From Streptomyces sp. NBC_01775 (lineage in GTDB: Bacteria; Actinomycetota; Actinomycetes; Streptomycetales; Streptomycetaceae), in the NCBI RefSeq assembly GCF_035917675.1, contig NZ_CP109104.1:6510001-6574000 (forward strand): DNA of 64,000 bases, read 5' to 3'. The number at the start of each line of letters is the position of its first letter. Position 1 is the stretch's first letter. Shown here piece after piece: positions 20,650 through 47,331 of this stretch. A program made the position numbers and the translations under genes. The notes under the pieces were generated by a model, which was not told where the DNA came from, made no database searches, and saw only the letters and a list, made by a program, of their open reading frames with translations.

Positions 20650-21465
20650 CTACCCGCGCAATTCGGCCAGGACCGCGTCGGTGAACGGCGTCCACACCTC
20701 GGCCGCCCAGGGCCCGAAGTCCCGGTCGGTCAGCGCCACGCACGCGGCGCCCGCCTCGGGGTCCACCCACAAGAACGTCCCCGACTGACCGAAGTGCCCG
20801 AAGGTGCGCGGCGAGGACGTGTCGCCCGTCCAGTGCGGGGACTTCGTGCCGCGGATCTCGAAGCCCAGCCCCCAGTCGTTCGGCTTCTGGCGGCCGTAGC
20901 CGGGCAGCACCCCGTTCAGGCCGGGGTGGACGACCGAGGTCGCCTCCTGGACCGTCGTACGGTCCAGGAGCGTCGGCGCCTGGAGTTCGGCCGCGAAACG
21001 GACAAGGTCCTCCAGGGTGGAGACGGCGTCCTTGGCGGCGGAGCCGGACAGTTCGGTCGCGGCCATGCCCAGCGGCTGGAGCACCGCCTCGTCCAGATAC
21101 CGCGGGAAGGGGATCTCCGTCGCCTTGGCCAGGTGGTCGGCGAGGGTCTCGAAGCCCGTGTTGGAGTAGATCCGGCGGGTGCCGGGCTCCGCCATCACGC
21201 GCTGCTCGTCGAAGGCAAGGCCCGAGGTGTGTGCCAGCAGGTGCCGCACCGTCGAGCCCTCCGGGCCCGCGGGCTCCTCCAGCTCGACGGCGCCCTCCTC
21301 CACGGCCACGAGTGCCGCGTAGGCGGACAGCAGTTTGGTGACGGAGGCGAGCGCGAAGCGTTGCCGGGCGGGGCCGTGCGTGCCGGCAAGCGTGCCGTCC
21401 GCGCGTACGACGGCCGCGGCGGCGGTCGGCGCGGGCCAGGTCTCGATCATCCGCAGGCTCTCCAT
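20650..21465 (-). CDS. serine hydrolase, class C beta-lactamase / DD-peptidase fold
   Basis: 271 aa. The SxxK motif is ASVTKLLSAYAAL, the YxN motif is IYSNTGFE, and the third motif region (GHFGQSGTFLWVDP) contains a His-x-x-Gly variant. No signal peptide is visible, so a cytoplasmic esterase or peptidase-like enzyme is likelier than a secreted beta-lactamase. ATG 21465 was chosen; upstream extension is only antisense to the merR-like gene. It is divergent from the MerR regulator. Confidence 0.85.
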   Translation of the reverse strand: MESLRMIETWPAPTAAAAVVRADGTLAGTHGPARQRFALASVTKLLSAYAALVAVEEGAVELEEPAGPEGSTVRHLLAHTSGLAFDEQRVMAEPGTRRIYSNTGFETLADHLAKATEIPFPRYLDEAVLQPLGMAATELSGSAAKDAVSTLEDLVRFAAELQAPTLLDRTTVQEATSVVHPGLNGVLPGYGRQKPNDWGLGFEIRGTKSPHWTGDTSSPRTFGHFGQSGTFLWVDPEAGAACVALTDRDFGPWAAEVWTPFTDAVLAELRG

Positions 21466-36915: not shown

Positions 36916-37374
36916 ATGGCGATCGAGGCCGGCACCAAGGCCCCGGACATAGAGCTCAAGGACCAGCACGGCCAGACCGTGCGGCTCTCGGACTTCCAGG
37001 GCAGCAAGAACGTGGTCCTGCTCTTCTACCCCTTCGCCTTCACCGGTGTGTGCACCGGTGAGCTGTGTGCGCTGCGGGACGAGCTGCCGAAGTTCGTCAA
37101 TGACGACGTGCAGCTGCTGGCCGTCTCCAACGATTCGCCGTTCTCGCTGCGCGTATTCGCCGAGCAGGAGGGGCTGGAGTATCCGCTCCTGTCCGATTTC
37201 TGGCCGCACGGTGAGGCATCCCGTGCCTTCGGCGTCTTCGACGAGGAGAAGGGCTGCGCCGTACGCGGGACCTTCATCATCGACAAGGAGGGTGTCGTGC
37301 GCTGGACCGTCGTCAACGGGCTGCCGGACGCGCGCGACCTCGACGACTACGTGAAGGCCCTCGAAAGCCTCTGA
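36916..37374 (+). CDS. AhpE/BCP-type peroxiredoxin
   Basis: 152 aa, thioredoxin fold. The peroxidatic cysteine is Cys46 in PFAFTGVCTGELC. A second cysteine, Cys51, gives the Cys-x4-Cys spacing of BCP-type enzymes, whereas mycobacterial AhpE lacks it. The resolving-strand region is VRGTFIIDKEGVVRW. It reduces H2O2 and organic peroxides with mycothiol- or thioredoxin-linked recycling. GAAGGGA lies about nine bases before the ATG; longer frames upstream are non-coding. Confidence 0.9.
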   Translation: MAIEAGTKAPDIELKDQHGQTVRLSDFQGSKNVVLLFYPFAFTGVCTGELCALRDELPKFVNDDVQLLAVSNDSPFSLRVFAEQEGLEYPLLSDFWPHGEASRAFGVFDEEKGCAVRGTFIIDKEGVVRWTVVNGLPDARDLDDYVKALESL

Positions 37375-37557: not shown

Positions 37558-38133
37558 GTGGGAGTCAGCCTCAACAAGGGCGGCAATGTCTCGCTGACCA
37601 AGGCGGCGCCGAATCTGACCGCGGTCATCGTCGGTCTGGGCTGGGACGCACGCACGACCACCGGCAGCGACTTCGACCTCGACGCGAGCGCCCTGCTGAC
37701 GAACACGGAGGGCAAGGTCGCCAACGACCAGAACTTCGTGTTCTTCAACAACCTCAAGAGCCCCGACGGCTCCGTGGAGCACACCGGTGACAACCTCACC
37801 GGTGAGGGCGAAGGCGACGACGAGGTCATCAAGGTCAACCTCGCCGGGGTGCCCGCCGATGTGGACAAGATCGTCTTCCCCGTCTCGATCTATGAGGCGG
37901 AGAGCCGCCAGCAGAGCTTCGGCCAGGTGCGGAACGCCTACATCCGCGTGATCAACCAGGCCGACAACAACGAGCTGGCGCGCTACGACCTGAGCGAGGA
38001 CGCCTCCACCGAGACGGCCATGGTCTTCGGCGAGCTGTACCGCCACGGTGCCGAGTGGAAGTTCCGTGCCATCGGCCAGGGCTACGCCTCGGGTCTGCGC
38101 GGCATCGCGCAGGACTTCGGCGTCAACGTCTGA
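37558..38133 (+). CDS. terD: TerD-family calcium-binding stress protein
   Basis: 191 aa, the full TerD length. It opens [18 protein letters not shown] and carries the acidic calcium site [11 protein letters not shown] and the C-terminal [20 protein letters not shown]. TerD folds as a beta sandwich that binds two Ca2+ ions. AGGAGG is four bases before GTG 37558. The next gene is a close paralogue, so this is a tandem duplication. Confidence 0.95.
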
Positions 38134-38255
38134 CCGACCCGGTCAGGCAGACACCGGCAGTCACGGGCGCCGCAGACTTCCGTAACCGGGAGGTGTGCGG
38201 CGCTCGGTGGTGCGGACACACTGGAGGCATCACACACCGGGGAGAGGACCAGAAC

Positions 38256-38831
38256 ATGAGCGTGACGCTCGCCAAAGGGGGGAACGTCTCCCTTTCGAAG
38301 GCCGCACCCAACCTGACGCAGGTCCAGATCGGCCTGGGCTGGAAGGCCCGTTCCACCACTGGCGCCGACTTCGATCTCGACGCGAGCGCGCTGCTGTGCT
38401 CGGGCGGGCGGGTGCTCGGCGACGAGTACTTCATCTTCTACAACAACCTCAAGAGCCCCGAGGGCTCCGTCGAGCACACCGGAGACGAGCTCGTCGGCGG
38501 CTCCGGCGGGGACGACGAGACGGTGCTGGTGGACCTCTCCCTGGTTCCCGCGCAGGTCGACAAGGTCGTCTTCGCGGTTTCCATCTACGACGCGGAGACG
38601 CGACACCAGACCTTCGGCCAGGTCACCGACGCCTACATCCGCGTGATCAACCAGGCTGACGGCGTCGAGCTGGCGCGCTACGACCTCACCGAAGACGCCT
38701 CTTCCGAGACTGCGATGATCTTCGGGGAGCTGTACCGCTACAACGCGGAGTGGAAGTTCCGTGCAGTCGGCCAGGGGTACGCGTCGGGGCTGAGAGGCAT
38801 CGCCCTAGACTTCGGCGTCAATGTCGCCTAG
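38256..38831 (+). CDS. terD: TerD-family calcium-binding stress protein, second copy
   Basis: 191 aa, about three quarters identical to the preceding protein by eye. It has the same calcium motif ([17 protein letters not shown]) and the same C-terminus (LYRYNAEWKFRAVGQGYA). It differs in the acidic loop (VGGSGGDDETVLVDLS in place of [16 protein letters not shown]). GGAGAGG lies about nine bases before ATG 38256. The 122-base gap from copy one could carry its own promoter. Confidence 0.95.
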   Translation: MSVTLAKGGNVSLSKAAPNLTQVQIGLGWKARSTTGADFDLDASALLCSGGRVLGDEYFIFYNNLKSPEGSVEHTGDELVGGSGGDDETVLVDLSLVPAQVDKVVFAVSIYDAETRHQTFGQVTDAYIRVINQADGVELARYDLTEDASSETAMIFGELYRYNAEWKFRAVGQGYASGLRGIALDFGVNVA

Positions 38832-38907
38832 ACGCCTCCAACGTCGCAGACGACGCGCCCAGACCCTTCGAACACACTTGTAGACCGGATACCGGATTGG
38901 GAAGCCC

Positions 38908-40068
38908 GTGCTCCTGAAAACCTTTGGCTGGTCCTTCGGCGTTACCGCCGTGGGGCTCGCCGCAGCGGCGTACTTCTGGGGGTGGGAGGCGTTCACCCTC
39001 GTGGCGATCCTGTCCGTCCTGGAGATCTCGTTGTCCTTCGACAACGCGGTTGTCAACGCCGGCGTACTGAAGAAGATGAACGCCTTCTGGCAGAAGATCT
39101 TCCTCACCATCGGCATTCTGATCGCGGTATTCGGTATGCGGCTGGTCTTCCCAGTCGTCATCGTCGCCATCACGGCCAAGGTGGGACCGATCGAGGCAGT
39201 GCAGGTGGCCCTCGACGACCCCAATCGTTATGAGCAGCTTGTCACCGACGCGCATCCCGCCATCGCGGCCTTCGGCGGGCTGTTCCTGCTGATGATCTTC
39301 CTCGACTTCATCTTCGACGAGCGCGACCACAAGTGGGTGAGCTGGCTGGAGCGCCCGCTCTCCCGGCTCGGCAAGGTGAACGGGCTCTCGGTCTGCATCG
39401 CGCTGATCGTGCTGCTCGTCGCGGCGATGACCATCGCCACCGGGGCCCACCAGCACGGCGGAATGCACGCCGACAAATCGGGCACGGTGATGCTCTCCGG
39501 CATCGCGGGGCTGATCACCTATCTGATCGTCGGCGGACTCTCCAGCCATTTCGAGGACAAGCTGGAGGAGGAAGAGGAGCGCGAGCAGGAGGCCGAGGAG
39601 GCCGCCGAGCGGGCGGGCAAGCAGCCCTCCGCCGTCGGACTGGCCGGCAAGGCCGCGTTCTTCATGTTCCTCTACCTCGAAGTCCTCGACGCCTCCTTCT
39701 CGTTCGACGGGGTCATCGGCGCCTTCGCCGTCACCAACCAGATCTTCTGGATGGCCCTCGGCCTGGGCATCGGCGCGATGTACGTCCGTTCGCTCACCGT
39801 CTACCTGGTGCGCCAGGGCACCTTGGACGACTACGTGTATCTGGAGCACGGCGCGCATTACGCGATCGGCGCGCTGGCCGTGATCCTGGTCGTCACTATC
39901 AAGTACGAGATCCACGAGGTCATCACCGGAATGGTGGGTGTCCTCCTGATCGCTGCCTCCTTCTGGTCCTCCGTGCGGCGCAATCGCGCCATCGAGGCCG
40001 AGGGGGGCTCCGACGGGGACGACAGCGGGGGCGAGGCCGAGGAATCAGAGGTCACCTCACGCGTGTGA
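38908..40068 (+). CDS. DUF475 (TerC-superfamily) integral membrane protein
   Basis: 386 aa with about nine membrane segments. Two repeated acidic membrane motifs, LEISLSFDNAVVNAGVL near residue 45 and LEVLDASFSFDGVIGAFAV near residue 265, are the TerC/Alx signature for metal transport. A central charged cytosolic loop (EEEEEREQEAEEAAERAGK) separates the halves, and the tail is acidic. TerC-type proteins export or sense Mn2+ and pair with TerD. No riboswitch is seen upstream. GTG start, with the GGGAAG site in the 76-base gap. Confidence 0.88.
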   Translation: MLLKTFGWSFGVTAVGLAAAAYFWGWEAFTLVAILSVLEISLSFDNAVVNAGVLKKMNAFWQKIFLTIGILIAVFGMRLVFPVVIVAITAKVGPIEAVQVALDDPNRYEQLVTDAHPAIAAFGGLFLLMIFLDFIFDERDHKWVSWLERPLSRLGKVNGLSVCIALIVLLVAAMTIATGAHQHGGMHADKSGTVMLSGIAGLITYLIVGGLSSHFEDKLEEEEEREQEAEEAAERAGKQPSAVGLAGKAAFFMFLYLEVLDASFSFDGVIGAFAVTNQIFWMALGLGIGAMYVRSLTVYLVRQGTLDDYVYLEHGAHYAIGALAVILVVTIKYEIHEVITGMVGVLLIAASFWSSVRRNRAIEAEGGSDGDDSGGEAEESEVTSRV

Positions 40069-40198
40069 CCGTCTCCTGAATGAGGAACGCTCCATGCGGG
40101 GCGGCTTCGAAACGGCGCGAGCCAACGGCTCCGCCCCGTTCCGGAGCCGCCCCGCCGCGTAGGCAGAGCGTGCACAGAGCACTGAGTGGGGGTGCGGG

Positions 40199-40957
40199 AT
40201 GGTCTCCCTGTGGGAGAACTGGCGGCGCGGTGTGGGGATGTCCCGCCGCGGGCCCAAATTCGATACGGTCGGCGGCGCTTCGACGTACGCGGTGGAGCTG
40301 ACCAAACGGAACGCCGAGCTGTCACTGACCAAACAGGGGGCCGACAGCGGGAGCATGCGGGTCAACCTCTCGTGGCGGATGCGCAGCTCCGACCTGGGCG
40401 GCAGGCCACGGCGCAGCGGCTCGCTGCGACACCCGCTCCAGATGCTCAAGCCCCACGTGGTGCAGGCCCACACCCAGGGCGTCGTCAATGTCGACCTCGA
40501 CCTCGCGTGCATGTACGAGCTGGTGGACGGCAGCAAGGGCGTCGTCCAGCCGCTCGGGAACTTCCTGGGGGACTGGAACGCGCCCCCCTACGTCAAGCTC
40601 ACCGGTGACGACCGGTTCGGCTCACCCTCCGGCGAGACGCTCTACGTCAACCTCGACCACCGGGACGAGATCAAACGCCTGCTCTTCTTCGTCTACATCT
40701 ACGACGGCACACCCGCCTTCGACCGTACCCACGCCATCCTCACGCTCTTCCCGAGCAACGGCCCGCGCGTGGAGGTCGGTCTGGACGAGCGGGCCCCGCA
40801 GGCGCGCTCGTGCGCCGTGCTGCTGATGGAGAACGTCAAGGGCGAGCTGATGGTGCGCCGTGAGGTCCGCTACGTCTACGGATTCCAGGCCGAGCTGGAC
40901 CGGCTCTACGGCTGGGGCCTCCAGTGGGGCCGCGGCTACAAGACCAACAAGGTCTGA
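40199..40957 (+). CDS. short TerA-like TerD-superfamily protein
   Basis: 252 aa. It lacks the N-terminal TerD domain of full-length TerA and matches its second half: VNVDLDLACMYELVDGSKGV, GDDRFGSPSGETLYVNLDHR, LLFFVYIYDGTPAFDRTHA and the end YGWGLQWGRGY. The start is uncertain: ATG 40199 or ATG 40238 (MSRRGPKFD), neither with a strong ribosome site. It lies in the ter cluster 130 bases after the DUF475 gene, and a strong hairpin ends it. Confidence 0.82.
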   Translation: MVSLWENWRRGVGMSRRGPKFDTVGGASTYAVELTKRNAELSLTKQGADSGSMRVNLSWRMRSSDLGGRPRRSGSLRHPLQMLKPHVVQAHTQGVVNVDLDLACMYELVDGSKGVVQPLGNFLGDWNAPPYVKLTGDDRFGSPSGETLYVNLDHRDEIKRLLFFVYIYDGTPAFDRTHAILTLFPSNGPRVEVGLDERAPQARSCAVLLMENVKGELMVRREVRYVYGFQAELDRLYGWGLQWGRGYKTNKV

Positions 40958-40981
40958 CCCGGCGGCGTGCGGCCGTGCGAC

Positions 40982-41010
40982 GGGCCCCGGCCGCCATGCG
41001 GCCGGGGCCC
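40982..41010. terminator. bidirectional terminator after the TerA-like gene
   Basis: 12-bp perfect arms GGGCCCCGGCCG / CGGCCGGGGCCC with a 5-base loop, between convergent genes and 8 bases from the stop of the minus-strand TerD gene. Confidence 0.88.
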
Positions 41011-41018
41011 GCGCGCTG

Positions 41019-42281
41019 TCATCGTTGGGTGAGGAACTGCGGCCCCTGGGGCGGCAGCGTGAACGCCGGGTCCGGCTGGGGATATCCGTAGGCGGGCTGG
41101 GGATATCCGTACGCCGGCTGGGTGGCGGGCGGCTGCTGGGGCGGCTGGGGGTAGCCGTAACCGGGCTGCTGCGGGTGCGGGCCCGGGGTCTGGGTGGTCC
41201 GCTGGTCCGGCGGTACGAACGGCGGTGGCCCCACGGTCGCCGCCGCGACCCCGGCCGGGTCCGGCTGGGGCTGGGGCGGCGCCGGTGCCGGGTCCGGGCC
41301 CGGGGTCGGACCGGGGCCCGGCGCCGGCGCGGGTCCGGGCTCGGGGCCCGGGGGCACCGGCTCGGGTCCGGGGCCGGGCGGAGGCCCTGGCGGGCCGGGA
41401 GGCGGCCCGGGCTCCGGCTGGGGCGCGGGGCTCGGATACGGATCCGGTACCGGGTCGGGGTCGGGGAAGCCGGGCTCAGGGGGCGGCTGCGGGACGGTCC
41501 CCGAGGGCGGCACCAGACGGAAGTCGTCCGCGCCCGTCGTGTCGGGGCCGGGTACGTGCGCCATGGTCGCGTCCGCGTCCACGCCCGAGTCCACACCCGC
41601 GTCCGTGCCGGGGTCGGTGCCGTGCGGGGGCGTCTCCTGGCTGGGTTCGCCCTCGTCGACGGAGATCCCGTACTCGGTGGCCAGCCCGATCAGGCCGGTG
41701 TCGTAGCCCTGGCCCAGCGCCCGGAACTTCCAGCCGTCACCCCGCCGGTACAGCTCCCCGCAGACCATCGCGGTCTCGGAGCCCGTCTCCGGCTCGATGT
41801 CGAAGGTGGCCAGCAGGCTCCCGTTACCGGCGCCGTCCGCTGCGCCATCCGGGTTGCCGCCCTTTGCGCCCTTGGTGCCGTCCGCACCGCCGGCCGCCGT
41901 GCTGTTCGAGCCCGCGGACGCGCTCGCGTCGTGCAGCAGCAGGCGCAGTTCCCGTACGCCGGTGAACGTACCGCCGTCCGCGGACGCGGCCAGCAGGACG
42001 CGGTCCACCGACGGGTCCAGCGCTGAGAGATCCGCCTCGATGGTGTCGCGCAGGCCCTCGGGCTCGCGCTTCTTGGCGAGGTGCCGGACCAGCCCCGAGG
42101 GGTGGCGCGGCTGGTTGTAGAAGATGAAATCCTCGTCGGACCTGACCTGGCCGTCTGTGCCGAGCAGCAGCGCCGAGGCATCGACATCCGGCACACCGGC
42201 ACCAGGCGTCCAGCAGAGGACGGCACGCACCGCCGAGGCCTCCAGCTGGATGTTCGATCCCTTCGTCATCGCGTGCGTCAT
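41019..42281 (-). CDS. TerD-family protein with long proline-rich C-terminal tail
   Basis: 420 aa. Residues 1-~200 form a divergent TerD domain: GSNIQLEASAVRAVLCWTPG, the calcium-site-like VPDVDASALLLGTDGQV, and ELYRRGDGWKFRALGQGYDT. It includes a Gly/Ala insert (AGSNSTAAGGADGTKGAKGG). The second half is a disordered Pro/Gly/Asp tail with many PGP and PPG steps, ending in PAYGYPQ-type repeats. Such tails in actinobacteria mediate assembly or envelope association. ATG 42281 has AGGA about nine bases upstream. It is divergent from the aldolase operon. Confidence 0.88.
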   Translation of the reverse strand: MTHAMTKGSNIQLEASAVRAVLCWTPGAGVPDVDASALLLGTDGQVRSDEDFIFYNQPRHPSGLVRHLAKKREPEGLRDTIEADLSALDPSVDRVLLAASADGGTFTGVRELRLLLHDASASAGSNSTAAGGADGTKGAKGGNPDGAADGAGNGSLLATFDIEPETGSETAMVCGELYRRGDGWKFRALGQGYDTGLIGLATEYGISVDEGEPSQETPPHGTDPGTDAGVDSGVDADATMAHVPGPDTTGADDFRLVPPSGTVPQPPPEPGFPDPDPVPDPYPSPAPQPEPGPPPGPPGPPPGPGPEPVPPGPEPGPAPAPGPGPTPGPDPAPAPPQPQPDPAGVAAATVGPPPFVPPDQRTTQTPGPHPQQPGYGYPQPPQQPPATQPAYGYPQPAYGYPQPDPAFTLPPQGPQFLTQR

Positions 42282-42482
42282 GTACTCATCCTGCCCTTCG
42301 TCCGCGGGACTCGACAACGCGGAACCGCCGACGGACGCGGCGGAGGAAGCGAACCGAGAGGTGTACATACAGGGAGAGTGATGTGTGTCCTGTCGTTTTG
42401 GAGAACTCTTGACCTCTGCTCATACGTACGATGAGCGCCTGTGCGGGGGACGCACAAAAGTTACAGCGAGACGGGGACCTTC

Positions 42483-43661
42483 ATGCGGCATTTCAGGCAT
42501 CTGACGCCTGAGCGCCGGAGCGCGCTCTTCCACCGCGAGCCTGCCGGGTTTACGGCCCAGGCACCCGCGAGAACGCTCGCCGTCGCCCTCGGCGCCACCC
42601 TCTACAGTCCCGCGACCAGGCCGGAGCTGGCCGAGGACGTGCTGAAACAGTCGGGGCGCGGCGTGGTGTCGATGGTGCTGTGCCTGGAGGATTCGATATC
42701 CGACGCGGAGGTCCCGGAGGCCGAGGACAACCTCGTCCACCAGCTCGCCCGCCTGGATGAGCGGCTGGATGAGGCGGAGCGCGACGAGCGGCTGCCGCTG
42801 CTGTTCGTGCGGGTCCGCACGGCACGGCAGATCCCCGCGCTGGTCGGCAGGCTGGGCCCCGCCGTGCGGATGCTGTCCGGATTCGTACTGCCGAAGTTCA
42901 CCGAGGACAGCGGAGCGCTCTTCCTGGAGGCGCTCACCGAGGCCGAGGCGTCCTGCGGGCAGCGGCTGTTCGCGATGCCGGTGCTGGAGTCGCCCGAGCT
43001 GCTGCACATCGAGACGCGTACCGAAGCTCTGGCCGGCATCGTCAGGACCGTCGAGAAGTACCGCGACCGGGTCCTCGCGCTGCGCCTGGGCGTCACCGAC
43101 TTCTGCTCCGCCTACGGGCTGCGCCGCACGCCGGAGATGACCGCGTACGACGTGCAGCTCGTCGCCTCCGTCATCGCGGACGTGGTGAACGTCCTGGGCA
43201 GGGCGGATGGCACCGGATTCACCGTGACCGGACCCGTGTGGGAGTATTTCCGGCCACAGGAGCGGATGTTCAAGCCACAGCTGCGGCAGAGTCCCTTCCT
43301 GAGCGGGCGCGCCGAGGACGTGCGAACGGCGCTGATCGAGCACGACATGGACGGGCTGCTCCGGGAGATCGAGCTGGACCGGGCCAACGGACTGCTGGGC
43401 AAGACCTGCATCCACCCCTCACATGTCGCGCCGGTGCACGCGCTCTCGGTCGTCAGCCACGAGGAGTTCTGCGACGCGACCGATGTGCTGCGCCCCGAGC
43501 GCGGTGGAGGCGGAGTGGTGCGCTCCGCGTACACGAACAAGATGAACGAGGTGAAGCCGCACCGTGCGTGGGCCGAACGCACGCTGCTGCGCGGCGAGGT
43601 CTTCGGTGTGGCCCGCGAGGGTGTGAGTTTTGTGGAAATGCTGGCGGCGGGAGTCAAGTGA
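42483..43661 (+). CDS. HpcH/HpaI aldolase-citrate lyase family protein of Ter biosynthetic module
   Basis: 392 aa. TIM-barrel aldolase of the citrate-lyase beta group. Acidic metal ligands are in VLCLEDSISDAEVPEAEDNL and LRLGVTDFCSAYGL, with the C-terminal lid KTCIHPSHVAPVHAL. It is longer than the usual ~300-aa CitE. It belongs to the subgroup that comparative studies of Ter systems place in an operon with phosphoribosyltransferases and a HAD phosphatase, predicted to make a nucleoside-like compound. Its stop overlaps the next start by four bases (GTGA). ATG 42483 is used; the frame is open upstream to 42441. Confidence 0.88.
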   Translation: MRHFRHLTPERRSALFHREPAGFTAQAPARTLAVALGATLYSPATRPELAEDVLKQSGRGVVSMVLCLEDSISDAEVPEAEDNLVHQLARLDERLDEAERDERLPLLFVRVRTARQIPALVGRLGPAVRMLSGFVLPKFTEDSGALFLEALTEAEASCGQRLFAMPVLESPELLHIETRTEALAGIVRTVEKYRDRVLALRLGVTDFCSAYGLRRTPEMTAYDVQLVASVIADVVNVLGRADGTGFTVTGPVWEYFRPQERMFKPQLRQSPFLSGRAEDVRTALIEHDMDGLLREIELDRANGLLGKTCIHPSHVAPVHALSVVSHEEFCDATDVLRPERGGGGVVRSAYTNKMNEVKPHRAWAERTLLRGEVFGVAREGVSFVEMLAAGVK

Positions 43662-46366
43662 GCGCGGACATACGAGGAGACAGCACCGGCGGCGCGGCGG
43701 GTACGAGCGCCGAGGTGGCTGCTGTGGGTGGCGGCGCGCCTGATACGGGCGGCGGCGCGGGCGCTGTGGGTGGTGGCGAGGTGTGGGCCGGGGCCTGGGT
43801 GGCCGAGCGGCTCGGTGTGCGCCTGGAGGGCGAGGGGCTGCGGGACCTGCTCGGGCTGGCGCTGCGCCGCAATCCGCGGCGGGCCCACCTGCTGGTCTCC
43901 CGCGTCCTCGGCAAGCACGTGCCGGAGAGTCCCGGCCGGATCGTCGGCGCCGGGGTCCGCCTGGGGGAACAGGTGCGCGAGCTGCTGGGCGGCCCCGAGG
44001 CGGACCGCTGCGTGGCGCTGGGCTTCGCCGAGACCGCCACGGGGCTCGGACACGGCGTGGCCGACGGCATCGGAGACGTCCCCTGCCTGCACTCCACCCG
44101 GCGACGGGTGCCGGGCGTCGACCCGGCGGGCGGCTTCGAGGAGGAGCACAGCCACGCCACCTCGCACCTGCTGCTGCCCGAGGACCCCGGACTGCTGGGC
44201 GGGGAGGGCCCGTTGGTGCTGGTCGACGACGAGCTGTCCACCGGCAGGACCGTGCGCAACACCATCGCCGCGCTGCACGCGCACCGGCCGCGCGACCGCT
44301 ACGTCGTCGCGGCGCTGGTCGACACCCGCGCCCCGGCCGATGTGGCGTCCCTGGAGAAGTTCGCGGCCGACCTGGGCACCCGCGTCCAGGTGGTCGCCCT
44401 CGCCTCCGGCCAGGTACGGCTCCCGGACGCCGTGCTGGAGCGGGGCCGGGAACTGGTCGCCGCACACGGCGAAGGCCCGGACGCCGACGCCGTCCCGCAC
44501 CAGGGGGTCGCCGGGGCTGCCGGGGCCGCGGTACGCCGGGTGGACCTCGGCTGGCCGCAGGGGCTGCCCGACGGCGGACGGCACGGCTTCGGCCCCGAGG
44601 AGCGGCAACGGCTGGACACAGCGCTCCCCGGCATGGCCGGACGGGTGCTGACGGAGCTGGAGTCGGCGGGGCTGGGCGTCGCGGGTCAGGACACCGCGGG
44701 GCAGGACACCGCGGTGCGTGACTTCGCGGGGGAGGGGCAGGCCACCGGGCGGGGTCCGTCCGCACCGGCCGGTACGGTCCCGGCCGGGACCTCGCCGCCG
44801 CGCGTGCTCGTCCTCGGCAACGAGGAGCTGATGTACGCGCCCCTGCGGCTCGCCGCCGAACTGGAGCAGCGCACCCAGGGCGCCGCCGAGATCCGCTTCT
44901 CGACCACCACCCGCTCGCCCGTCCTCGCCGTCGACGTCCCCGGCTACGCGATACGCAGCGCGCTGCGTTTCCCCGCGCACGACGCGCACCGTTGTTCGAG
45001 CGACGAGGACGACCCCGGTGAGCGCTACGCCTACAACGTCGCGGGGCAGGGCTTCGACGCCGTCGTGGCCGTCGTGGACAGCGAGGGCGACACCACCGAA
45101 CTGCACGCTCCCGGCGGCCTCCTGGACCAGCTGGCCGGATGTGCCCCGCACGTGCTGCTGGCCGTCATCCCCTCCTACGTCCCCGGGGCTCCGCCCGCCG
45201 CGCCGACGCTGCCACGGCCGCGGTCTCGGCCCCTCGCCCGGCCCCTGCGGGGGCCCGCCTTCTCCTCGTACGCGCCCGAGGACGTCGCCTGGCTGCTGCG
45301 GGACCTGTCCGGCGTCGAGCTGGAGGCACCCACCGAGGAGCGCGAGGAGGCCATCCAGGCCGGCGGCGCCCACTACGCGGAGTCGCTGCCGGTGGAGTAC
45401 CAGCCCTCCGAGGAGTATCAGCGGCTCTTCCACAGCGCGCTGGAGGGCTCGGCCGAGCGCATCGCGCGTGCCGTCGGTGCCGTGACGGAGACGGTGCTCG
45501 CCGAGCGCGGTCCCCGCCCCGTGCTGGTGTCGCTCGCGCGTGCGGGCACGCCCGTCGGCATCCTGATGCGCCGCTGGGCTCAGCACGCGCACGGGCTCGA
45601 CCTGCCCCACTACGCCGTCTCGATCGTGCGCGGACGCGGCATCGACACCAACGCGCTGCGTTATCTGGCGGCCCACCACGACCCCGCCGACGTGGTGTTC
45701 GTCGATGGCTGGACCGGCAAGGGCGCCATCACGCGGGAGCTGGCCGAGGCGCTCGCCGGGCATCCGGGATTCGACCCGGACCTGGCCGTCCTCGCCGATC
45801 CGGGCTCCTGCGTGCGCACCTACGGCACGCGCGAGGACTTCCTCATCCCCTCCGCCTGCCTCAACTCGACGGTCTCCGGGCTCATATCACGCACCGTCCT
45901 GCGCCCCGGCCTGATCGGGCCGGACGACTTCCACGGCGCCAAGTTCTACCGCGAGCTGGCCGACAGCGACCTGTCCCGGCACTTCCTGGACACGGTCGCC
46001 GCCCGCTTCGAGGCCGCACGGGCCTCCGCAGGGCGGGACGCCACGGCGCTCGCCGGCGCGGACCGGGCGCCCACCTGGGAGGGCTGGCGCGCGGTGGAGC
46101 GCATCAGCCAGTCCTACGGCATCGGGGACGTGAACCTGATCAAACCGGGTGTCGGGGAGACCACGCGTGTGCTGCTGCGCCGCGTGCCGTGGCGCGTACT
46201 GGCCCAGCGCGGTGCCGGCGCCGACCTCGACCACGTACGGCTGCTGGCCGGGCAGCGCGGGGTGCCCGTCGAGGAGACCGACGACCTGCCCTACACCTGC
46301 GTCGGCCTGATCCACCCCCGCTACACGCGCGGTGCCACGGGCGCCGACGGAAGGGCGGCCCGGTGA
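43658..46366 (+). CDS. fused PRTase - TRSP - StiP - PELOTA-like protein of Ter biosynthetic module
   Basis: 902 aa. A disordered Gly/Ala leader (1-40) is followed by a PRTase_2 domain with a PRPP loop (VLVDDELSTGRT, residues 187-198). The TRSP domain has its signature in FSTTTRSPVLAVDVPG (TRSP at 418-421). A StiP-type domain (about 535-770; SSYAPEDVAWLLRDL) has a second PRPP-like loop (VFVDGWTGKGAITREL at 680) and cysteines in DPGSCVRTYG and IPSACLNSTVSG. The last ~80 residues (VNLIKPGVGETTRVLLRR ... YTCVGLIHPRY) look like the PELOTA-type RNA-binding domain. In many bacteria the PRTase-TRSP and StiP-PELOTA parts are separate genes. The GTG start overlaps the aldolase stop, and its stop overlaps the HAD start. 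Confidence 0.85.
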   Translation: MSADIRGDSTGGAAGTSAEVAAVGGGAPDTGGGAGAVGGGEVWAGAWVAERLGVRLEGEGLRDLLGLALRRNPRRAHLLVSRVLGKHVPESPGRIVGAGVRLGEQVRELLGGPEADRCVALGFAETATGLGHGVADGIGDVPCLHSTRRRVPGVDPAGGFEEEHSHATSHLLLPEDPGLLGGEGPLVLVDDELSTGRTVRNTIAALHAHRPRDRYVVAALVDTRAPADVASLEKFAADLGTRVQVVALASGQVRLPDAVLERGRELVAAHGEGPDADAVPHQGVAGAAGAAVRRVDLGWPQGLPDGGRHGFGPEERQRLDTALPGMAGRVLTELESAGLGVAGQDTAGQDTAVRDFAGEGQATGRGPSAPAGTVPAGTSPPRVLVLGNEELMYAPLRLAAELEQRTQGAAEIRFSTTTRSPVLAVDVPGYAIRSALRFPAHDAHRCSSDEDDPGERYAYNVAGQGFDAVVAVVDSEGDTTELHAPGGLLDQLAGCAPHVLLAVIPSYVPGAPPAAPTLPRPRSRPLARPLRGPAFSSYAPEDVAWLLRDLSGVELEAPTEEREEAIQAGGAHYAESLPVEYQPSEEYQRLFHSALEGSAERIARAVGAVTETVLAERGPRPVLVSLARAGTPVGILMRRWAQHAHGLDLPHYAVSIVRGRGIDTNALRYLAAHHDPADVVFVDGWTGKGAITRELAEALAGHPGFDPDLAVLADPGSCVRTYGTREDFLIPSACLNSTVSGLISRTVLRPGLIGPDDFHGAKFYRELADSDLSRHFLDTVAARFEAARASAGRDATALAGADRAPTWEGWRAVERISQSYGIGDVNLIKPGVGETTRVLLRRVPWRVLAQRGAGADLDHVRLLAGQRGVPVEETDDLPYTCVGLIHPRYTRGATGADGRAAR

Positions 46367-47331
46367 CACACCAGGACGAGGGTCGGGGACATGGCGAGGG
46401 ACACGTGGGGCAGGACGGGGGCGAGGACGTGCGCGGGGACATGCGCGGGGACGGGGACGCAGGCGGGGACATACGCGGGGACGGGGACGGAAGCGGCGGG
46501 GGTCCGCTTCCGCTGATCGCCAGTGACCTGGACAGAACGCTGATCTACTCCGCCGCCGCGCTGGATCTGACAATGCCCGACGCCGAGGCGCCACGGCTGC
46601 TGTGCGTCGAGATGTACGAGCACAAGCCGCTCTCCTTCATGACGGAGCGGGCCGCCGCGCTGCTCGCCGAACTCGCGGACCGCACACTCTTCGTGCCCGC
46701 CACCACCCGCACCCCCGAGCAGTACCGCCGCGTCAGCCTGCCGGGGCCGGCCCCGCGCTTCGCCGTCTGTGCGAACGGCGGCCACCTGCTGGTCGACGGC
46801 GTGAGCGACCCGGAGTGGCAGGCCGTGGTCCGCGAACGGCTGACCGAGTGCGCGCCGCTCGCGGACGTACGCGCACACATGCTGCGTCACGCGCAGGACG
46901 CGTGGCTGCGCAAGGAGCGGATCGCGGACGATCTGTTCGTCTACCTCGTCGTCGAGCGCTCGCTGCTGCCCGACACCTGGGTCAAGGAGCTGGCCGACTG
47001 GGCGGGCCCGCGCGGCTGGAACGTCTCGCTCCAGGGCCGCAAGATCTACGCCGTGCCGCGCCCGCTCACCAAGAGCGCGGCCGTCGCCGAGGTGGCGCGC
47101 CGCACCGGGAGCCCCGCTACCTTCGCGGCCGGGGACTCCCTGCTGGACGCCGACCTGCTGCACGCCGCGGACCGGGGCTGGCGCCCCGCGCACGGCGAAC
47201 TGGCCGAGAGCGGCTGGGACCCGCGGCATGTGCGGGCACTGACCGAACAGGGGGTCATGGCGGGGGAAGCCATCCTGCGCGCGATGGGCGCGGCGCTGAC
47301 GTCGGCGGGCGCAGGGGCGCCCGTGGCGTGA
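46363..47331 (+). CDS. HAD-superfamily hydrolase of Ter biosynthetic module
   Basis: 322 aa. The first ~50 residues are an unusual Gly/Asp/His-rich run. HAD motif I is IASDLDRTLIYSA, motif II is VPATTRTPEQY, and motif IV is FAAGDSLLDADLL, as in Cof/SPP-type sugar-phosphate phosphatases. It probably removes a phosphate from the ribosylated product of the upstream enzymes. The GTG start at 46363 overlaps the previous TGA (GTGA). A later start would remove the low-complexity leader, so the true N-terminus is uncertain. Confidence 0.87.
   Translation: MTHQDEGRGHGEGHVGQDGGEDVRGDMRGDGDAGGDIRGDGDGSGGGPLPLIASDLDRTLIYSAAALDLTMPDAEAPRLLCVEMYEHKPLSFMTERAAALLAELADRTLFVPATTRTPEQYRRVSLPGPAPRFAVCANGGHLLVDGVSDPEWQAVVRERLTECAPLADVRAHMLRHAQDAWLRKERIADDLFVYLVVERSLLPDTWVKELADWAGPRGWNVSLQGRKIYAVPRPLTKSAAVAEVARRTGSPATFAAGDSLLDADLLHAADRGWRPAHGELAESGWDPRHVRALTEQGVMAGEAILRAMGAALTSAGAGAPVA

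Follow-up and report, generated by a model that had tools for sequence, protein, structure and literature searches.

The conserved Streptomyces form of a Ter-associated biosynthetic module and its possible use of phosphoribosyl pyrophosphate

We analyzed a window of 64,000 nucleotides from the genome of Streptomyces sp. NBC_01775 (contig NZ_CP109104.1, positions 6,510,001 to 6,574,000), in which eight genes at 37558–47331 combine a condensed set of ter genes with a short biosynthetic operon. Coordinates are those of the window, and the start codons of the locus genes were assigned from reading the sequence. The first gene, TerD1 (37558–38133, plus strand; Pfam TerD E 3.6e-86), begins with a GTG that is preceded by GGAGG. 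It is followed on the same strand by TerD2 (38256–38831; Pfam TerD E 2.2e-78), whose start was assigned on inspection, and by a gene for a DUF475-type membrane protein of the TerC family (38908–40068, GTG start; PF04332 E 8.3e-133, PF03741 E 4.5e-21). The fourth gene (40199–40957, plus strand) encodes a TerA-like protein that comprises the C-terminal TerD-like half of TerA only. Its match to the Pfam TerD family (E 0.023) fell short of the cut-off and it was identified by alignment, sharing 39% identity with Enterobacter TerA, 42% with Pseudomonas TerA and 25% with a Tsukamurella hypothetical protein (alignment A8). The fifth gene (41019–42281, minus strand; Pfam TerD E 4.1e-41), which encodes a TerD domain with a long proline-rich tail, is divergent from the operon.

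Beyond the divergent intergenic region (42282–42482) lie three genes on the plus strand. These encode a C-C bond lyase of the HpcH/HpaI, CitE-like type (42483–43661; PF15617 E 1.3e-122), a fusion protein of 902 residues with phosphoribosyltransferase (PRTase), TRSP, StiP and PELOTA domains in the order PRTase_2-TRSP-StiP-PELOTA (43658–46366, GTG start; PF15609, PF12500, PF11202, PF15608), and a predicted HAD phosphatase of 322 residues, extended by about 45 residues at its N-terminus (46363–47331, GTG start) and recognized from its motifs and solved relatives. Both junctions, read directly, consist of a four-base GTGA overlap (43658–43661 between lyase and PRTase, 46363–46366 between StiP-PELOTA and HAD; both plus strand). 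Direct reading, Pfam matches, motifs and solved relatives placed all eight genes where a preliminary description of this DNA had put them, and the two stop/start overlaps and the three-gene operon that it proposed were likewise supported. Its statement that five ter genes adjoin the operon holds as adjacency, but not as a single operon with the enzymes, since the fifth gene is divergent and lies in between.

The locus is an ordinary, conserved Streptomyces form of a known Ter-associated biosynthetic module beside a condensed ter set. Among the 148 class genomes surveyed, strong matches to PRTase_2 and to StiP fell in the same 33, a 34th PRTase_2 match (genome G134) being marginal. The lyase exceeded 360 bits in 32 of these 33 module genomes, the exception (G069) ending at a contig break; weaker lyase-family matches, which brought the genomes above cut-off to 76, were left out of this count. 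All 11 genomes of the genus in the set, including the one analyzed here, carried the module. The order lyase, PRTase, StiP, HAD was constant in the class loci read, barring G069, where the locus stops before the lyase, and G017, where no HAD was found within 3.4 kb past StiP. We also scanned genome contigs for named loci, the best 80 of which were all from Streptomycetaceae, and took a wider view from plasmid, phage and viral records. TerD1, TerD2, TerC, TerA, the divergent TerD, lyase, fusion and HAD genes were colinear in all 56 named loci of at least 20.9 kb, the proline-rich TerD keeping its position in each; the remaining 24 fall below this length and show this order in part. Recurrence of the gene order in relatives, in the class loci as in the long named loci, argues that the arrangement is more than chance.

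From the overlaps, the preliminary description had concluded that the three enzymes are made in equal amounts. Junctions were scored by the in-frame start codon available, whatever start had been annotated. In the class set, with the window itself counted in, a four-base overlap was possible at the lyase/PRTase junction in 22/32 cases and at the StiP/HAD junction in 23/32, with a one-base overlap in seven more at the latter. Of 73 lyase/PRTase junctions in the named Streptomycetaceae, taken at the first available start, 28 have a four-base overlap, 3 overlap by one base and 42 leave a gap; for 78 StiP/HAD junctions the corresponding numbers are 52, 24 and 2. Coupling is therefore strongly kept between StiP and HAD, but not at the lyase. 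PRTase-TRSP and StiP-PELOTA were fused in 19 of the 33 class genomes and encoded in separate frames in 14, whilst a single frame covered all four domains in 77 of the 80 named loci (not in 3). With gaps so common at the first junction, and with the split frames, equal dosage was not borne out. Fusion and overlaps suggest that the enzymes work jointly, without fixing equal amounts, and would favor the hand-over of a phosphorylated intermediate over a fixed dosage.

Outside the class the module takes other forms. An Enterobacter plasmid carries ATP-grasp, PRTase, HAD, StiP and lyase genes next to ter genes, and a P. aeruginosa ter plasmid is arranged similarly, with the HAD gene between those for PRTase and StiP. 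The operon of the latter further encodes a trypsin-like peptidase and an additional HAD, which belongs to another Pfam family, PF12710 (L170 5759–6898 and 10877–11605). A search of 72,556 plasmid records gave 2567 with StiP, 2556 with PRTase, 2554 with HAD, 2524 with lyase and 2502 with ATP-grasp matches; these are matches per record and not adjacencies, obtained with queries from different species in mostly enterobacterial records. Rhizobium contributed 41 of the StiP, 34 of the PRTase and 44 of the HAD records and was outside the ten commonest genera for lyase and for ATP-grasp matches, one listed Rhizobium record matching the lyase query over a short stretch, 23% of its length. A Rhizobium plasmid has the bare PRTase-StiP-HAD core (L083 10594–13850), with no ter gene in the 25-kb stretch. 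The jumbo Acinetobacter phage ME3 carries in a row genes for vWA-TerF, DUF475 TerC, TerD, PRTase_2, a HAD-like protein and StiP-PELOTA (L085 896–6942), its HAD being seen by tblastn and missed by Pfam. Neither of these two records, searched whole, gave a lyase-family or ATP-grasp-family match. Because two complete records from outside the Actinomycetes hold PRTase, StiP and HAD without the other two enzymes, we infer that these three would form the core, and that lyase and ATP-grasp look optional, varying by lineage. In the Streptomyces window tblastn found no match to an ATP-grasp gene, and the whole genome gave a single weak ATPgrasp_Ter match of carB size. Two of the 33 module genomes (G074 and G069) have an ATP-grasp copy in the vicinity of TerC or of the operon. 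A strong (>100 bits), unlinked member of the family is present in 7 of the 11 genus genomes, and in those seven a partner ATP-grasp may act from elsewhere. Separately, a contig from a viral collection (L167 7781–16243) carries lyase, PRTase-TRSP, StiP-PELOTA, HAD and ATPgrasp_Ter genes, followed by a Macro-domain protein and an ADP-ribosylglycohydrolase, a gene set for which a link to ADP-ribose metabolism is possible.

The preliminary description made conserved linkage to ter genes in relatives a test of its reading, and such linkage was found in actinomycetes: a DUF475 TerC gene shares a contig with the lyase, at a distance of no more than 15 kb, in 30 of the 33 module genomes. The exceptions are G017 and G069, in which TerC is on another contig (contig breaks), and G078, which lacks a DUF475 match and has TerD genes alongside. 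Mere neighborhood of ter set and operon, without functional coupling, would agree with the Rhizobium plasmid, where no TerD, TerC or TerB match was found within about 11–12 kb of the core, and with the 10 class genomes, one a marginal case, in which TerC was above cut-off and the module was missing. Against it stands the frequency of close linkage, set beside the genome analyzed here (9.34 Mb, two contigs), where TerD was matched 15 times at about 10 sites. Because these sites are so few, chance neighborhood is unlikely (by our own arithmetic, a probability of about 4% for a single locus at a distance of up to 20 kb), and we regard the absence of any coupling as very unlikely. In one genome (G100) the stretch from TerA to lyase (L065 5734–12357) also encodes an Hsp70-like protein and a protein of 1507 residues with a weak zinc-ribbon match.

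We then considered what each enzyme may do. The PRPP (phosphoribosyl pyrophosphate) loop of PRTase_2, DDE-x-x-TG-x-T, is canonical, with D143, D144, E145, T148, G149 and T151 invariant in alignments of 13 and of 36 sequences, and the domain can be aligned to PyrR and to UMP synthase. The similarity of the lyase is to enzymes of the CitE type, with citrate lyase 3qll as a solved relative (E 1e-8).

The StiP-PELOTA half (376 residues, 45236–46363, plus strand) was modelled with AlphaFold2 (pLDDT 90.6, pTM 0.91). The best structural match of the StiP part was CriT, the ribose-5-phosphate transferase of the Hib capsule, followed by other PRPP-using transferases; the 50 matches listed for the model are PRTase, L7Ae/L30e-like or ribosomal chains, with no protease among them. 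In this model StiP looks like a PRTase-fold, PRPP-using transferase rather than a protease. Its loop, VDGWTGKG, contains D157-G158 and no adjacent acidic pair (VDSW in Rhizobium), and CriT likewise has no adjacent acids in its PRPP loop; a profile comparison of StiP with PRTase_2 was not significant. Strict patterns for the StiP motifs matched in 28, 23 and 21 of 32 cases, low counts that we take as an artefact of the patterns, as looser ones in the right frame were found in 33/33. StiP carries the label of a cysteine protease in Pfam and NCBI, which would add proteolysis to the module. The best cysteine column, Cys208 (numbering of the modelled piece), is kept in 46 of 52 StiP sequences; a pattern scan for it matched 1/33 and was not used. 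No cysteine is invariant among the 52, however, nor in smaller alignments with the Enterobacter, Rhizobium and phage proteins, and a literature search of limited scope found no report of StiP protease activity. Given also the PRTase-like predicted fold, we consider protease function extremely improbable.

The PELOTA domain has an L7Ae/L30e-like fold in the model and an E-x-T-K/R motif, which raises the question of whether RNA could be the acceptor. PELOTA would then dock kink-turn RNA for the PRTase-fold domains to ribosylate, Rit1 acting on yeast initiator tRNA being the comparison. StiP-PELOTA would be RNA-guided or RNA-acting, placing ribose-5-phosphate on a kink-turn RNA or on a compound on it, the HAD would dephosphorylate the product, and the Ter answer to stress would be RNA ribosylation. 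No RNA target is known, though, the window holds one tRNA only at Rfam gathering thresholds, and the PELOTA domain could be structural or regulatory; we hold this to be unlikely.

The HAD protein matched no Pfam family at E<=1, Trehalose_PPase included, nor any NCBIfam family at E<=0.001. Residues D55, D57, T59, T114, K237, G257, D258 and D262 are invariant in an alignment of five sequences (A3), in which the N-terminal extension is missing from the four relatives. A strict pattern for motif I matched 13/32, which we again take as a pattern artefact, the looser one in the right frame matching 32/32. This alignment retrieved the PDB entries 6d3v, 6d3w and 6cj0, titled ‘Trehalose phosphatase’ (E 1e-56), and the window protein alone retrieved 6cj0/6d3v (E 6e-8). 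By these matches the window HAD is assigned to the family of 6d3v/6cj0. The HAD encoded on the P. aeruginosa ter plasmid, to which the window protein is about 26% identical, is identical to the solved chain at 233 of 251 positions (93%), and each of the two has just two cysteines, 85 and 231. A paper on inhibitors of trehalose-6-phosphate phosphatase (TPP) mentions, in an excerpt, residues Cys85 and Cys231 for the enzyme from P. aeruginosa; it also describes how the phosphatase activity of an extrachromosomal TPP was measured and inhibited (PMC6838324). Because the cysteine numbering agrees, we infer that the solved chain (6d3v/6d3w/6cj0) is this extrachromosomal TPP, and one enzyme of the Ter module has probably already been crystallized and assayed; a limited literature search found no paper connecting the solved P. 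aeruginosa TPP to Ter.

The HAD could accordingly be a true TPP, and the module could serve trehalose metabolism. The near-identity of the P. aeruginosa ter-operon HAD to a chain solved as ‘trehalose phosphatase’ would fit this, as would the activity measured for the extrachromosomal enzyme, the high specificity for trehalose 6-phosphate (T6P) ascribed to TPPs in the excerpt (PMC6838324), and the presence of otsA in 32 of the 33 module genomes. Yet of the 115 genomes that lack the module 93 have otsA as well, so that its distribution does not discriminate. No trehalose synthase gene was seen in the loci read, OtsA and OtsB are encoded together elsewhere in the genome analyzed, and the window HAD has no significant similarity to that OtsB. 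A role in trehalose metabolism is thus improbable here.

We propose instead, at a probability of roughly 0.4, that the operon is predicted to carry out a PRPP-dependent transfer of ribosyl-5-phosphate to an acceptor, followed by dephosphorylation. The TerD/TerC membrane set would sense stress and switch on the operon, the products of which would act in sequence. The lyase would trim or supply the acceptor, onto which ribose-5-phosphate from PRPP would be moved by either or both of the PRTase-fold domains in the fusion, and the HAD would strip the 5-phosphate to leave an N-, O- or C-linked riboside, while the PELOTA domain might tether or regulate the enzyme via RNA. Experiments have established such a pairing of transfer by a PRTase fold with subsequent dephosphorylation by a HAD in the synthesis of bacterial polysaccharides, with CriT/CrpP of H. 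influenzae Bcs3 and Cj1432 of Campylobacter as examples. What weighs against the proposal is the description of TPPs as exquisitely specific for T6P, in the excerpt of PMC6838324.

A published prediction, as quoted in an excerpt of PMC8115787, is that the Ter enzymes make a nucleoside-like metabolite. The lyase would make a base-like compound, PRTase_2 a nucleotide and the HAD a nucleoside-like signal or protectant. The canonical PRPP loop of PRTase_2 favors this, as does the lyase in all 32 class module genomes whose contig permits seeing it, but the Rhizobium plasmid and phage ME3 cores indicate that the base cannot always come from lyase or ATP-grasp, unless it is supplied by the host. We regard this sequence of reactions as possible, if somewhat doubtful. 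With ribosyl transfer as the preferred reading, the evidence would narrow ‘nucleoside-like’ to a PRPP-derived riboside.

Alignment of 71 intergenic regions (window included, three longer ones dropped) revealed conserved blocks at both ends of 42282–42482, a putative promoter region. The block at 42401–42440, upstream of the lyase, reads GGAAC and then ACGTACtATtAcCGGCC in consensus. TerD1 presumably has its orthologue in sco2368 of S. coelicolor. According to an excerpt of PMC6767563, sco2368 is among the listed targets of the envelope-stress sigma factor and the level of its product rises with vancomycin, and a title cited in the excerpt of PMC7244524 ties sco2368 to calcium. Directly upstream of TerD1 is a peroxiredoxin gene of the AhpC/TSA family (36916–37374), present in 55 of the 56 long named loci. 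A tRNA-Pro called by ARAGORN at 41305–41380, inside the proline-rich TerD gene, is without Rfam support and likely a false call in GC-rich sequence, and a tRNA-Leu call at 20888–20958 is likewise without such support. A riboswitch or other RNA reading was dropped, as one tRNA-Val alone exceeded the Rfam gathering thresholds in the window. None of the eight island proteins matched a PADLOC model at E<=0.001, and a defence system was rejected.

The Ter set is common on enterobacterial plasmids and regular in Streptomyces. To our knowledge nobody has isolated a product of the module enzymes, and a limited literature search returned no report of one. New here are the family assignment of the HAD, the reading of StiP as a transferase, and the lyase and ATP-grasp that look optional. 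StiP as a PRPP-using transferase, together with a HAD tied to a solved family, gives concrete substrates to try, and the old question of the cluster’s product becomes easier to test; the Rhizobium plasmid and jumbo phage cores suggest which enzymes suffice.

Compared with known systems, the locus is closest to the Ter-associated biosynthetic module reportedly described by Anantharaman, Iyer and Aravind in 2012, with which it shares the C-C lyase, PRTase_2-TRSP, StiP-PELOTA and HAD beside TerD/TerC/TerA genes. The Ter loci of enteric and Pseudomonas plasmids have ATP-grasp and separate genes, whereas the window has one fusion and no linked ATP-grasp. As in Bcs3 CriT/CrpP and Cj1432, a PRTase-fold transferase is paired with a HAD; the module here, in contrast, lacks a polymerase domain, has a different HAD and adds both a canonical PRTase_2 and a PELOTA domain. 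PyrR and the type I phosphoribosyltransferases share the PRPP loop with PRTase_2 and the predicted fold with StiP, from which StiP differs by its single acidic residue and the tryptophan in its loop. The P. aeruginosa ‘trehalose phosphatase’ is of the same HAD family as the window protein over its full length, but the latter is distant and carries the N-terminal extension. Finally, PELOTA shares its fold and E-x-T-K/R motif with the kink-turn binders L7Ae, L30e and YbxF and, unlike them, is fused here to an enzyme.
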